DNA of 33,060 nt from Desulfocapsa sulfexigens (GTDB lineage Bacteria; Desulfobacterota; Desulfobulbia; Desulfobulbales; Desulfocapsaceae): the NCBI GenBank assembly GCA_015662865.1, contig DQTH01000219.1, forward strand, positions 1-33,060, in the 5' to 3' direction. The position numbers were made by a program, and so were the translations under genes. A model generated the notes under the pieces. The model worked only from the letters and a program-made list of their open reading frames with translations. It was not told the origin of the DNA and made no database searches. Positions 1 to 32,879 of this stretch are shown piece by piece. Numbering within the stretch: the first letter of the stretch is position 1; every line of letters starts with the position of its first letter.

Positions 1-61
1 CACTACTATTTTGAGCTATTTTCTTTTTATATCAGTATCTTGGTCCTTTTCTCAGGGCCGA

Positions 62-157
62 CTAAGTAGTAATAAAAACCAAACTTTTATGGATTTTGCT
101 TTAAATCAGGATGTTACAAGCACCCACAAGGCATGTATACCCATCGCGGGGTGTTAG
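62..157 (-). repeat. Palindromic intergenic element, copy 1
   Basis: Read on the minus strand, this begins with CTAACACCCC, which contains the TAA stop of glucokinase, followed by a short ACCC/GGGT hairpin, a TATA stretch, then GCCTTGTGGGTG and an AT-rich tail. Over about 95 bases it aligns with the copy at 25842-25956; both share, on the plus strand, AAATCAG, TGTTACAA and CACCCACAAGGCA in the same order and spacing. The far end (the GCCTTACTCC part of the other copies) has diverged here. I infer an old member of a dispersed element family. Whether it acts as RNA or DNA is unknown. Confidence 0.75.
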
Positions 158-1173
158 TTGTTTTGACTGAATCTGAACAGATGAAAGCCGTAGGCTGCAG
201 TGCCCAGCAAGGCTGCGTCCTGTTTCATGATGAGTTGGACTGGGATGGAATTCATGAGATCTGCCATTTTTTCTTTTTGTCGAAAGCTTTCCAGAAAAGA
301 ATCAAAAGAAATACGATGAACAATTCTTGGCAGGATGCCTCCTCCTATGAATAATCCACCGGTTGCAAAGCTCTTGAGGGCCAGATTTCCAGCCTCAGCA
401 CCAAGGATTTCAAGAAAAAGAGATAAGGCTTTTTCGCAGAGAGGGCAAGGAGTTTCGGCCAGTGCTCCTTCAACAATGAGTGGGGTCCTGTCACTGATAT
501 GTTCTATTTCTTTGAAATGGCGAGTGTCTTTTGCGATTGCTGTGGTGGCAAGAAAATCGAAAATATTCGGGAGTCCTTTTCCTGAACAGAGCAGTTCATA
601 ACTCACAGCGATATGTTTCTTCTGCAGGTAGGACAACAACTCTGCCTGTTCCTGATTCAGTGGAGCAAAGTCACAATGACCGCCTTCTGAGCCTTGGGGG
701 AAAAAACAGGACTCCCTGGCAATAAGAAAGCCTTCACCAAGACCGGTTCCGGGAGCAATCACTGCCCGTACCCCATCTTTTTCGATCTGGCCATGTTGAA
801 TCAGAAAGAGATCTTTATCTTTCAGAAAAGGGAGCGCACTGCAGACAGCGGTGAGGTCGTTGATCAGGGCTATTTTTTTGAAACCAAATTTGTCCTGCAG
901 TTTGTTTACATTAAGAGACCAGTCCAGATTGGTAAGTTTTGCAGTAGTCTGGTGTATAACGGCAGCTACTCCAAAACACCCATATACCGGAGTTTCGGAG
1001 TCTGCCAGGAAATCAGTCAGGATTTCGTCAAAGTTTGAGAAATCTTTGTTGTGGTAACGGTGGCGGCGAACGGGCAGGGCATCAGGTTTTTGTGACAGAT
1101 CAAAGATCGCCACATCACTTTTTGTTCCTCCAATATCCGCTGCCAGCAGAAGTTTTGTATTTAAGCCTGTCAT
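154..1173 (-). CDS. glk: Glucokinase (Glk, bacterial ROK-independent type)
   Basis: This 339-residue cytoplasmic kinase should phosphorylate glucose to glucose 6-phosphate with ATP. The N-terminal phosphate-binding motif DIGGTK is at residues 13-18. The catalytic Asp is in LINDLTA (about 106), a PGTGLGEGF loop lies at 141-149, SEGGHCDF at 162-169, and FIGGG near the C-terminus. The length fits the E. coli-type Glk family (about 320 residues). The ATG at 1173 is the only sensible start, because an upstream ATG runs into a stop at once; the ribosome-binding site is weak. The gene lies 51 bases behind the rhodanese on the same strand and its stop codon lies inside a palindromic element. Product goes naturally to the zwf and pyk products encoded further on. 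Confidence 0.93.
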   Translation of the reverse strand: MTGLNTKLLLAADIGGTKSDVAIFDLSQKPDALPVRRHRYHNKDFSNFDEILTDFLADSETPVYGCFGVAAVIHQTTAKLTNLDWSLNVNKLQDKFGFKKIALINDLTAVCSALPFLKDKDLFLIQHGQIEKDGVRAVIAPGTGLGEGFLIARESCFFPQGSEGGHCDFAPLNQEQAELLSYLQKKHIAVSYELLCSGKGLPNIFDFLATTAIAKDTRHFKEIEHISDRTPLIVEGALAETPCPLCEKALSLFLEILGAEAGNLALKSFATGGLFIGGGILPRIVHRISFDSFLESFRQKEKMADLMNSIPVQLIMKQDAALLGTAAYGFHLFRFSQNN

Positions 1174-18054: not shown

Positions 18055-19518
18055 CTATGCAGTGCGATAATTTGGAGCTTCTTTTGTGATTATAACGTCA
18101 TGGACATGGGATTCACGCAGTCCGGAAGAGGAAATCTTGACAAATTTTGCCTTTTCCCGCAATTCTTCAATGGTGCCAGCCCCCACATATCCCATACCAG
18201 ACCTGAGCCCGCCCAGCAGCTGATAAATAACATTGGCAAGGGGGCCCCGATAGGGAACTTTACCTTCAATACCTTCGGGAACAAGCTTTGACTGGCTGGA
18301 AATTTCAGACTGGAAATAACGGTCTGATGATCCTTTACGCATGGCCCCAAGAGAACCCATTCCGCGGTAGCCTTTGTAGGTTCGTCCCTGGTAGAGGAAT
18401 GTTTCACCAGGAGTTTCATCTGTTCCGGCAAAGAGAGAGCCGATCATGATTGCATGTGCGCCGCCGCCAATGGCTTTGGCCAGTTCTCCGGAATGTTTGA
18501 TGCCGCCATCCGAGATGATTGGTACATCGTATTTTGAGGCAACCTCAACAGCTTTTTGGATGGCTGTCATCTGCGGGACTCCCACACCTGCAACAATGCG
18601 TGTTGTACAGATCGAACCCGGACCCACACCGACTTTAACGCAGTTGGCTCCTGCTTTAATGAGAGCCTCAGTGCCTTCACCAGTTGCGACATTGCCGGCA
18701 ATAACCGGAAGATCGGGAAATGCACCTTTGATTTTTTCCACAGCCAGCAGTACTCCCTGGGAATGGCCGTGTGCAGAGTCAACGACCACAATATCAACAC
18801 CGGCATCAACCAGTTTCTGACCATTTTCCTCAATATCATTGCCGACTCCAAGGGCAGCTCCAACCAGGAGTCTTCCCATGTCATCCTTGGCAGCCAGAGG
18901 ATATTTTTTAATTTTTTCCAGGTCTTTTATGGTGATCAGGCCGCTGAGATTTCCGTTATCATCAACAATCAGCAATTTTTCGATTCGATGTTCATGAAGT
19001 AATGCTTTGGAATGTTCAAGGTCAATTCCCACTTTGGCGGTTACCAGGTTCTTACTGGTCATCACATCACCCACCCGCAGGTCATCATCTGAAACAAAAC
19101 GAAGGTCACGGTTGGTGACAATTCCCACAAGTTTGCAATTCCGTAGAACAGGCAGCCCGGAAATCTTATACCTGGCCATTATTTTTTCCACTTCGGCCAC
19201 AGAGTGGGTTTCTGTCACCGTAATCGGGTCGATAATCATGCCGGACTCTGATTTCTTAACTCGTTCCACCTCTTTTGCCTGCTGCTCAATGGACATATTT
19301 TTGTGGATGATCCCAAGACCGCCTTCACGGGCCATGGCAATTGCCGTGCGGTGTTCGGTCACCGAATCCATTGCAGCACTTATGAGTGGTGCATTCAGAT
19401 CTATGGTGTTTGTGAGCCTTGTGGAAAGGGAGACTTCGCTGGGCAGGATTTTGGATGCTGCAGGGCAGAGAAGCAAATCATCAAAGGTAAAAGCAATTTC
19501 TATATTGTCAGGTAACAT
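18055..19518 (-). CDS. guaB: Inosine-5'-monophosphate dehydrogenase
   Basis: A 487-residue enzyme that oxidises IMP to XMP with NAD+, the committed step to GMP. The TIM barrel carries the catalytic cysteine in GPGSICTTR (C304), with KVGVGP before and [13 protein letters not shown], the IMP-binding loop, after. Residues about 97-205 form an inserted pair of CBS domains, which bind regulatory nucleotides in many relatives. ATG at 19518 has AGGAG six bases before it. It is the first gene of the run guaB-guaA-pta-pyk-zwf-NYN-phosphoesterase. Its upstream region holds the large double palindrome at 19625-19853, placed 105-335 bases ahead of the start, so that element could affect transcription. 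Confidence 0.98.
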
Positions 19519-19624: not shown

Positions 19625-19853
19625 ACTAACACCCCGAAAGGGGGTATAAGTACCTTGTGAGAATATTTTCTTTGAAAAGATTCAGTAAATATTCTGTAAG
19701 GTACTAAAGGGGCCATTTTAGCATTGAACAGGAAAAGATCAAAACATTATTAGTACCTTATAAATTCTTTAGAAGTCCACGCTTATCTAGTGGTTTTGAA
19801 AAGAATTTGGTGAAGGTACTTATACCCCTTTGTGGGGTGCTAGCTTTGCCTTT
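19625..19853. repeat. Double palindromic element (copies 2 and 3, inverted)
   Basis: The two ends are inverted copies of the same motif: CTAACACCCC-GAAA-GGGGGTATAA on the left and, read on the minus strand, CTAGCACCCC-ACAAA-GGGGTATAA on the right. Between them are two tandem large hairpins of the same design. The first has GTACCTT (19650-19656) then AGAATATTT, pairing with AAATATTCT and AAGGTAC. The second has GTACCTT (19753-19759) then AAATTCTTT, pairing with AAAGAATTT and AAGGTAC near 19814-19820. All four stem parts pair without mismatch by eye. The element fills most of the gap between divergent guaB and the YciO-family gene. I infer a composite of two family members in opposite orientation. 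Confidence 0.8.
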
Positions 19854-19894: not shown

Positions 19895-20506
19895 ATGTTG
19901 CTTGCAATAAATCCGGACAACCCTCAGCAGAGGTTAATTCAACAGGTCGTAGATCGATTAAAGCGCGGGGCGGTTATCTGTTATCCCACAGATACCGGTT
20001 ATGGGATCGGTTGTGATTTCTCATGCCAGAAAGCTGTCAAAAGAATTATTCAGATCAAGAACAGGCCGAAAGGAAAACCATTTTCTTTTATGTGTTCAGA
20101 TCTAAAACATATCAGCAACTATGCCCATGTCTCCAACGTCGCTTACCGGCTCCTGAAAAAGAACCTTCCCGGTCCGTATACATTTGTCCTTCCAGGGACC
20201 AAGCTGGTTCCAAAGGCCATGTTCACCAAACAGAAAACCGTGGGTATAAGAGTGCCGGAAAATCCAATTTGCCGGATGTTACTCGAAACCCTGGGTAATC
20301 CAATGGTTAATACTTCTCTTCCCTGTAACCATGACGAATTTACAACATCAGACCCTTATGATATCGACTGTCTCTATGCAAAACAGATGGATCTCATTGT
20401 TGATGGAGGGGATGTGTATCCTGATCCGTCAACGCTAATAGATCTTACCGGAGATTATCCGGTGGTTCTGAGGGAGGGCAAGGGAGACGTTACCCCTTTC
20501 CTGTAA
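19895..20506 (+). CDS. YciO/Sua5/TsaC-family protein (threonylcarbamoyl-AMP synthase-like)
   Basis: A 203-residue protein of the YrdC-like fold that binds ATP and RNA in related enzymes. The early motif AVICYPTDTGYGIGCD (26-41), the basic IIQIKNRPKGKPFSFMCSD (about 51-69), the LPGPYTFVLPGT turn (about 90-101) and VGIRVPENPICRMLLE are typical. TsaC and Sua5 make threonylcarbamoyl-AMP for tRNA t6A37. The wording of the motifs looks nearer to the YciO branch, whose role is less certain, so I leave out a gene symbol. ATG at 19895 has AGGAG eight bases before it. It is transcribed away from guaB, alone on the plus strand, with a palindromic element just upstream. Confidence 0.85.
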   Translation: MLLAINPDNPQQRLIQQVVDRLKRGAVICYPTDTGYGIGCDFSCQKAVKRIIQIKNRPKGKPFSFMCSDLKHISNYAHVSNVAYRLLKKNLPGPYTFVLPGTKLVPKAMFTKQKTVGIRVPENPICRMLLETLGNPMVNTSLPCNHDEFTTSDPYDIDCLYAKQMDLIVDGGDVYPDPSTLIDLTGDYPVVLREGKGDVTPFL

Positions 20507-25841: not shown

Positions 25842-25956
25842 GTTAGTGCCTTACTCCATATAAGCAGAAATAAAAAACAAGCTTTTTGGGATTTAATTTT
25901 AAATCAGATTGTTACAAACACCCACAAGGCACTTATACCCCTTGTGTGGGGTGTTG
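25842..25956 (-). repeat. Palindromic intergenic element, copy 4
   Basis: Read on the minus strand: AACACCCC-ACACAA-GGGGTATAA, then GTGCCTTGTGGGTGTTTGTAAC, an AT-rich middle, and TATATGGAGTAAGGCACTAAC at the far end (sequence parts abridged). GTGCCTT and AAGGCAC can pair and close the element. It starts two bases after the stop of the zinc-ribbon/receiver-like gene and ends three bases before the ATG of the aldolase/dehydrogenase. It matches copy 5 at 31651-31763 along its whole length. Confidence 0.85.
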
Positions 25957-31650: not shown

Positions 31651-31763
31651 CTAACACCCCACAAGGGGGTATAAATGCCTTGTGGGTGTTTGTAACATTT
31701 TGAGTTCAAATTCAATCCACAAAATCTTGTTTTATATTGCTGTTTATATGGAGTAAGGCTCTA
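31651..31763 (+). repeat. Palindromic intergenic element, copy 5
   Basis: It begins with CTAACACCCC-ACAA-GGGGGTATAA, then ATGCCTTGTGGGTGTTTGTAAC, an AT-rich middle with AAATCTTGTTTTATATTGCTG, and ends TATATGGAGTAAGGCTCTA (parts abridged). A long alternative stem, AACACCCCACAAGG against CCTTGTGGGTGTT, competes with the short ACCCC/GGGGT hairpin. It starts 11 bases after the yedF stop and ends at the ATG of the next gene, whose GGAG ribosome-binding site lies inside the element. Confidence 0.85.
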
Positions 31764-32879
31764 ATGTCCTCCCATCTGTTCGAACGTATTGCCTTGGATT
31801 GTTTTAACTGTGGCATTTGCGTTAAAGAATGTGCTTTCCTGCAGGAATACGGTACACCACAGAAAATTGCGGTCGACTGGCTGGCAGGCAGGGGAAGGAA
31901 AAACAGACAGGTTCCATTTGAATGCAGCCTGTGTGGGTTGTGCCGCGCAGTGTGCCCTAAAGATCTTGATCCTTCAGCCATGTTTCTTGACATGCGTCGG
32001 GAGCTGGTAGCAAAAGGTGATGGTGATTTTAGGGAGCATAACACCATTCGTTCATATGAAAAAAGGGGAAGTTCCCCACTTCTGTCCTGGTTTCATTTTC
32101 CGGAAAATTGTCACACTGTACTTTTTCCCGGCTGCGCTCTGCCGGGAAGCCGACCGTTGACGCTTACCCGTTTGTTTTCTTTTCTGCAGGAGTCCATCCC
32201 GGATATTGGCGTGGCACTTGACTGCTGCACCAAACCATCACATGACCTTGGCAACAGTGTTCATTTTCAGACGATGTTCAGGGAGCTTTGCCGGATTCTT
32301 ACTTCCCACTCCGTAAAAACAGTTCTTACGGTCTGCCCAAATTGTTATCGTATTTTTAAGGAATATGGCACAGACCTGGAAGTCCGATCTGTTTATGAAG
32401 ATCTTGCCCGGTCTGGAAATTTTTCAGAAAATCTTCAGACTGAAATAACTGTACATGACCCTTGTGGCGTACGTTTTTCTGAAGAAGTACAGCAGAGCAC
32501 AAGGGATCTTTTACAGCTCCAGGGCCTGAAAATAAGAGAAATGAAACATAATCGGACAAAATCCTATTGTTGCGGTGAAGGCGGGGCCGCAGGTTTTATA
32601 AGACCTGATTTTGCTGAGAAATGGACCCGGAAAAGAGTGAATGAGGCAGGGCCGGACCAGATAGTCAGCTATTGCGCGGGTTGTACACATTACCTGGGAA
32701 AGGAGGCAAAGACCCATCATCTTCTTGACCTTCTTTTTTTTCCGCAGGCAGTGATGCAGGGAAGGCAGAAGGTGAGCAAGTCACCATTTACCTACTGGAA
32801 CAGGTATCGTTTGAAACAAACCCTCAAAAAACAATTGCCTGATGGCATTTCCGGTACCCGGCTGGAGCTTCGCAATTGA
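31764..32879 (+). CDS. HdrD/GlcF-like iron-sulfur oxidoreductase subunit
   Basis: A 371-residue cytoplasmic protein. Two [4Fe-4S] ferredoxin motifs come first, CFNCGICVKEC (13-23) and CSLCGLCRAVCP (about 54-65), then two cysteine-rich CCG domains: GCALPG ... DCCTKP ... VCPNC, and DPCGVR ... YCCGEGG ... CAGC. This layout is shared by heterodisulfide reductase HdrD, glycolate oxidase GlcF, GlpC and LutA/LldE-type proteins. It probably passes electrons between a flavoprotein and a thiol or quinone partner; no flavoprotein gene follows within the window. ATG at 31764 has GGAG ten bases before it, in the palindromic element; a TTG nine codons upstream is unlikely. It stands directly behind yedF on the same strand. 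Confidence 0.88.
   Translation: MSSHLFERIALDCFNCGICVKECAFLQEYGTPQKIAVDWLAGRGRKNRQVPFECSLCGLCRAVCPKDLDPSAMFLDMRRELVAKGDGDFREHNTIRSYEKRGSSPLLSWFHFPENCHTVLFPGCALPGSRPLTLTRLFSFLQESIPDIGVALDCCTKPSHDLGNSVHFQTMFRELCRILTSHSVKTVLTVCPNCYRIFKEYGTDLEVRSVYEDLARSGNFSENLQTEITVHDPCGVRFSEEVQQSTRDLLQLQGLKIREMKHNRTKSYCCGEGGAAGFIRPDFAEKWTRKRVNEAGPDQIVSYCAGCTHYLGKEAKTHHLLDLLFFPQAVMQGRQKVSKSPFTYWNRYRLKQTLKKQLPDGISGTRLELRN

Follow-up and report, generated by a model that had tools for sequence, protein, structure and literature searches.

A double hairpin ahead of guaB in Desulfocapsa sulfexigens: two probable insertions of a small, structure-defined element

The double hairpin found between guaB and a YciO-family gene of Desulfocapsa sulfexigens, within the 33,060-nt stretch of DNA that we analyzed (the window), almost certainly arose when a small non-autonomous mobile element inserted twice, independently and in opposite orientations. 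The units are most likely a non-autonomous, structure-defined transposable element of the REP/MITE type, and perhaps move through single-stranded DNA by the action of an HUH enzyme supplied in trans. We consider the explanation as a whole, two insertions of a mobile element together with HUH-like mobilization, to be probable.

The units share one plan (Table 1): a short head hairpin, then ATAA, a long tail hairpin with GTRCCTT/AAGGYAC as its closing stem, and CTAA, the whole being placed 3' of a (C/T)TAA-like target. Unit 1 reads, on the plus strand, CTAA flank, head ACCCC-GAAAG-GGGGT, ATAA, tail hairpin GTACCTT/AAGGTAC with a 9-bp inner stem, and CTAA; unit 2, on the minus strand, has the same order but a different inner stem and an additional loop module. 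The inner stems of the two tail hairpins are AGAATATTT/AAATATTCT and AAATTCTTT/AAAGAATTT, with the internal loop at the identical position. The original prediction of two such hairpins, alike in GTACCTT and internal loop and unlike in their 9-bp stems, is borne out: both are present and their folds beat chance. Each unit folded alone as DNA, on either strand, reaches -15.7 to -17.1 kcal/mol (z = -5.5 to -6.1), a value equaled by none of 200 shuffles, and the RNA fold of the 281-nt region has a z of -6.4. The latter, joint fold comes largely from the shared, inverted heads of units 1 and 2; a large cruciform forms at the guaB gap because two copies with the same head meet there in opposite directions, and the inverted ACCCC/GGGGTATAA ends noticed earlier correspond to a 38-nt arm pair that is 84% complementary. 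The hairpins do lie in the interval first proposed (19625-19853), with slightly shifted coordinates for units and flanks, and both neighboring genes are confirmed; the description of the structure as filling the gap between them was loose, about 218 of 376 nt being occupied.

Table 1. Features of the guaB-yciO gap and further units in the window
Feature	Position	Strand	Basis
guaB, IMP dehydrogenase	18055..19518	-	PF00478, E 3.9e-160
Sua5/YciO/YrdC-family gene	19895..20506	+	PF01300, E 6e-52
CTAA, left flank (target) of unit 1	19626..19629	+	sequence; left flanks of 153 units are CTAA-like
unit 1, subtype A, 3' end CTAA	19630..19707	+	family member; no copy in the 14 orthologous gaps that are intact
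head hairpin of unit 1, ACCCC/GGGGT	19631..19645	+	fold
tail hairpin of unit 1, closing stem GTACCTT/AAGGTAC and 9-bp inner stem	19649..19705	+	fold; order-wide covariation of stem
ancestral host spacer between units 1 and 2	19708..19749	.	core kept, with at most one substitution, in 8/17 relatives
promoter-like TTGATC-16-TAAAAT in spacer, directed at guaB	19742-19715	-	consensus match
unit 2, subtype B with loop module, ends CTAA on minus strand	19750..19839	-	family member; site empty in relatives
tail hairpin of unit 2	19752..19820	-	fold
head hairpin of unit 2	19824..19838	-	fold
CTAG, left flank (target) of unit 2; relatives with an empty site read CTAA, TTAA or GTAA	19840..19843	-	sequence
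further unit, subtype C	25843..25953	-	pattern match; no unit in orthologous stretches fetched
further unit, subtype C	31655..31764	+	pattern match; no unit in orthologous stretches fetched
probable worn unit, subtype C	32..160	-	pattern match alone

The evidence for insertion comes from relatives. Among 19 relatives of the same genus, the guaB-yciO gap was intact in 14, broken by contig ends in three (G004, G012 and G014), and left out in two (G016 and G019); no unit was found in the 14 intact gaps, either by head or by general pattern, so that empty sites do exist in close relatives. Conservation confined to the region upstream of guaB is not what we see, since these relatives lack the units there and units are present at other places. 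The core of the spacer, TTTTAGCATTGAA, was recovered with no more than one substitution from 8 of the 17 same-genus genomes fetched. At the site of unit 2, the empty relatives G008, G017, G003 and G015 carry CTAA, TTAA or GTAA, and the right flank that comes next is similar, as judged by eye. The gap of G004 holds a unit with another head type, elsewhere in the gap and likewise beside CTAA. Two further units of the window show the same pattern: the orthologous stretches had no unit in 12 cases for the first subtype C unit on the minus strand (nine of these placeable on both sides) and in eight cases for that on the plus strand. A different repeat family was also observed in guaB-yciO gaps and in another gap of several same-genus genomes (L293 in G015; L285 in G009; L288 and L289 in G012; L302 in G011): a long inverted repeat, some 150-200 bp in length, with a GTACG center and GTAAAAACTCTTCAT-like ends.

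The hairpins are inverted members of one interspersed and evidently mobile family, as had been proposed; the further suggestion, that they form a BIME-like composite or transposition unit, did not hold. A composite moving as one would account for two inverted members lying near each other with matching outer arms, and REP dimers are described as frequent in other bacteria (PMC3733652), but the two units differ in subtype (A and B), the 42-nt spacer between them is ancestral host DNA, and by eye no inverted pair within 300 bp other than that at guaB was seen among the 63 core matches in the D. sulfexigens genome. We therefore regard such a composite as very improbable; the double hairpin is a coincidence of two insertions. 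The pair at C208 is a palindromic end overlapping the tail of a preceding unit.

If the promoter-like site in the spacer is the guaB promoter, unit 1 would lie wholly in the guaB leader and unit 2 upstream, toward the YciO-family gene. Two promoter-like sites were found in the region where 1.6 were expected, and because this count is near expectation, the spacer promoter is supported by being conserved in relatives. The insertion of unit 1 has probably given the guaB 5' leader an extra hairpin without disturbing the promoter core. It is nevertheless extremely unlikely that the structure serves guaB or the YciO-family gene as a conserved regulator or cis-acting RNA: its stable fold and the probable position of unit 1 in the leader would suit that role, but it is missing from all 14 intact orthologous gaps, units occur at dozens of other loci, and an Rfam scan of the window gave no match above a family's gathering threshold. 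The units may still have a secondary effect at the guaB locus. Integron attC sites and simple terminators were set aside from the sequence; there is one terminator-like match in unit 1, on the minus strand, versus 0.3 expected.

Within the 3.53-Mb D. sulfexigens genome, the core GGGGTATAAGTACCTT has 63 matches with at most two mismatches, versus 7 for the reversed control, and three tail subtypes can be distinguished: A, B and a longer C with GTGCCTT/AAGGCAC. The units are mostly intergenic; the heads of only nine of 55 placeable units (from this genome and G187) fell inside a stop-to-stop frame of at least 150 codons, versus 79% of random positions in the same loci. The units also appear modular. 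A loop core, TTCTTGTTTTTT (at most one mismatch), occurs forward in 92 and reversed in 25 of 169 units, versus one of 169 shuffled inserts, and the 21-nt head is repeated in tandem three to five times in two copies (L077 and L078). Several side observations concern these loops. At one position of the tail loop, subtypes A and B either have or lack the module CAGGTAAGCGTAGACTCCG or a relative (L010, L011, L014, L021 and L027); unit 2 carries it at 19762-19808, and in L161 it forms a tandem repeat. A second hairpin module, TACCCCTCAAGGGGGTACTAAAAAGAG, is found in the tail loop of many units (L086, L110, L115, L120, L127 and L179 among them), directly 3' of TTTCTTGTTTTTTA, as if inserted.

The tail hairpin is maintained by pairing, not by sequence, which supports the selection for pairing proposed in the original prediction. 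Because the search pattern fixes the tail ends, it is the third closing pair and the inner stem that carry the covariation evidence. Of 166 units, 70 have A.T as the third pair of this stem and 77 have G.C, the remaining 19 being eight A/C, seven G/T and four others. Across the order, 18 short tails from 18 genomes (18 of 19, L447 having been excluded) paired in 93.0% of cells, versus 84.1% when shuffled (none of 500 as high) and 41 to 51% when slid; it should be noted that the shuffles do not remove relatedness, whereas the slid control keeps it. In the same set, 32 cells had changed on both sides, versus 9.3 in shuffled tails, and the covariation score was 0.291 versus 0.122. For a mixed alignment of subtypes A and B, RNAalifold returned a meaningless 4-pair structure; for subtype C it showed no doubly changed pair. 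The heads vary between genomes and are mostly still hairpins, a weaker case than that of the tail: exact head hairpins of at least 4 bp stood directly 5' of ATAAGT in 19 of 30 units (one per genome), versus seven of 30 shuffled upstream stretches, with stems that include ACCCC/GGGGT, CCAGC/GCTGG, CCCGG/CCGGG and CCCCG/CGGGG.

Copies are dispersed over many genomes of sulfate reducers in the order Desulfobulbales. An exact-match scan with one genome per species gave at least 111 stretches, and the titles among the 80 matches listed name Desulforhopalus, Desulfocapsaceae, Desulfobulbaceae, Desulfobulbus, Desulfurivibrionaceae and a few broader labels. The form with the CACCCC head was found, with up to two mismatches, in 27 of 242 genomes of the order; with up to one mismatch, it was found in none of the 379 genomes outside the order in a phylum scan of 395 genomes, 16 of which lie inside the order and of these D. 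sulfexigens alone matched. The general form, ATAAGTRCCWT-N(40-70)-AAGGYACTAA, searched for in the same 242 Desulfobulbales genomes, occurs in 48, with no match to the reversed control in any genome. The same-genus genomes G003 and G005 combine the same tail with different heads. Annotated plasmids and phages gave no match to unit 1, and no viral contig had the head pattern; two contigs of a viral collection (L482 and L483) carry the general unit pattern once each.

The ends of the units point to a defined target. In 153 units the left flank has the consensus C (0.71), T (0.76), A (0.88), A (0.86), in a set that was picked with the tail pattern and is thus biased for the right end. Among 67 units with an exactly complementary closing stem, 65 have CTAA at the right end but only 32 have it as left flank, which argues against plain target duplication. 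Of the 35 units with a left flank other than CTAA, 34 end in CTAA and one has identical letters on both sides. These end counts would suit an element that inserts 3' of a loosely defined YTAA and carries a CTAA of its own, and they speak strongly against plain target duplication. In 17 of 169 cases a unit abuts another one, whose right end forms its left flank, as expected if the CTAA of a unit serves as a target. A DDE-type MITE with short target duplications would also be small, non-coding and multi-copy, with CTAA often on both sides, but the units lack terminal inverted repeats, their two ends being unlike, and only the single unit mentioned above has the same letters on both sides; we hold that reading to be highly unlikely.

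The mechanism that we favor for the inserted units would be one in which a trans-acting enzyme recognizes their ends as folded single strands, cleaves the target 3' of YTAA and the right end of the element 3' of CTAA, and joins the element in without target duplication, as in IS200/IS605-type (HUH, Y1) transposition. Judged from anatomy alone, an HUH-like mechanism has in our view an even chance of being correct. Y1_Tnp genes are found in 32 of 36 genomes of relatives, and no CACCCC head lay within 1.5 kb of a Y1_Tnp gene at 26 loci in element-bearing genomes, early scans of these neighborhoods having used the CACCCC head and single tail motifs alone. With the general pattern, units were present at two of 69 Y1_Tnp loci (215 kb), about what the density of units would lead one to expect by rough, uncomputed estimate. 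No autonomous Y1 element sharing the ends of the units was found among the Y1_Tnp loci scanned, in genomes that are incomplete; the ends of the IS200-like copies of D. sulfexigens differ from those of the units. In G029, a head stands some 145 nt 5' to a Y1 domain; it was rejected as a linked case, having a different tail and the opposite direction. By eye, the numbers of Y1 genes and of units do not agree across genomes, and G084 (84% complete) has ten heads and no Y1_Tnp match at E 0.001. Among the proteins that recur beside units at 201 loci, no transposase was recognized by reading the sequences of the 25 clusters listed, the largest being of PAS/sensor type. No bias of orientation relative to replication was seen in one genome, of a single contig (G187; 13 leading and 18 lagging, p = 0.47, or 11 leading to 10 lagging without the sites near the GC skew switches at about 3.63 and 1.65 Mb).

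Two Y1 loci were noted in their own right. In G015 (L232:640-2190), a TIRYT-like transposase gene is bracketed by two direct copies, about 190 bp long and almost identical, each of which contains a unit tail. On contig C249 of D. sulfexigens (L073:522-1563), a Y1 transposase read as two open frames is flanked by 26-nt inverted repeats with GGGGTCAAG, which is close to the TIRYT motif GGGGWSAS of PMC3733652.

A true REP system, with the units as REPs spread by a host TnpAREP/RAYT enzyme, is in our opinion unlikely. The units are palindromic, mostly intergenic and multi-copy, they occur as dimers, Y1_Tnp genes are common in the genomes as noted above, and the reverse-strand TTAG at the foot of the tail hairpin is one letter off GTAG. 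However, there is no GTAG or CGTC tag, no unit ends flank Y1_Tnp genes at the loci scanned, the TIRYT-like gene of D. sulfexigens has AAAGGGGTCAAGTCCGCTTTTGACTT ends that are unlike those of the units, and the counts of Y1 genes and units do not match. A further idea, likewise tentative and rather unlikely, is that of a separate class of structure-defined mobile element across the whole order, in which the hairpins would be rewritten repeatedly while the hinges (ATAA-GTRCC and GGYAC-TAA) and the CTAA junction stay constant; the agent that moves it might be a host replication process or an enzyme other than a linked or known Y1 transposase, and the loops would be landing sites for further hairpin modules.

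Palindrome-associated elements of haloarchaea are IS200/IS605-derived non-autonomous elements, and the BOX elements of Streptococcus pneumoniae are modular, with one module that can be repeated. The units resemble BOX elements in this modularity, with a head repeated in two copies, and differ in architecture and host. Compared with known systems, the units look like a new cousin of the bacterial palindromic repeats. As described in PMC3733652, PMC8266576 and PMC6006769, REPs and BIMEs with their RAYT (TnpAREP) or TIRYT enzymes are likewise small, palindromic, mostly intergenic and multi-copy, form dimers in both arrangements, and differ in stem sequence by species. In contrast to those descriptions, the units have no GTAG/GTGG or CGTC tag, their feet being CTAA and ATAA forward and TTAG and TTAT reversed; they consist of two different hairpins whose order is fixed, separated by ATAA, with CTAA as both flank and end; and they have one architecture common to an order, with no linked Y1 gene found. 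IS200/IS605-derived elements, as described in PMC6006769, have several traits in common with the units: ends that are asymmetric, have hairpins close by and form no terminal inverted repeats, insertion without duplication 3' of a fixed short target whose tetranucleotide is carried at the end of the element, and head-to-tail insertion at an existing end. They differ in that no autonomous partner with the ends of the units was found among the loci scanned, perhaps in orientation, no bias having been seen in one genome, and in that the head hairpin begins 1-2 nt past the junction, which leaves no room there for the internal guide described for IS200/IS605 (guides and TnpAREP are treated in PMC6006769 and PMC8266576). 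REP dimers, CGTC repeats and TIRYTs are covered by PMC3733652, according to which CGTC repeats are also palindromic and without a dedicated linked transposase, and have another tag and shorter single stems than the units. In sum, the family resembles REPs and IS200/IS605-derived elements, fails the REP tag and linkage tests, and is without a known autonomous IS200/IS605 partner. A search of open-licence papers gave no account of this repeat family; for Desulfotalea psychrophila, PMC12306157 tabulates a REP count, with no sequence beside it, that may or may not concern the same family.

The conspicuous structure ahead of a gene for purine synthesis is thus explained by two insertions, and the reading as a conserved regulator is unneeded. 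With defined ends, a defined target and strong covariation, this family may serve as a system for asking how palindromic repeats spread without an adjacent transposase, a question that is open for CGTC repeats as well (PMC3733652).
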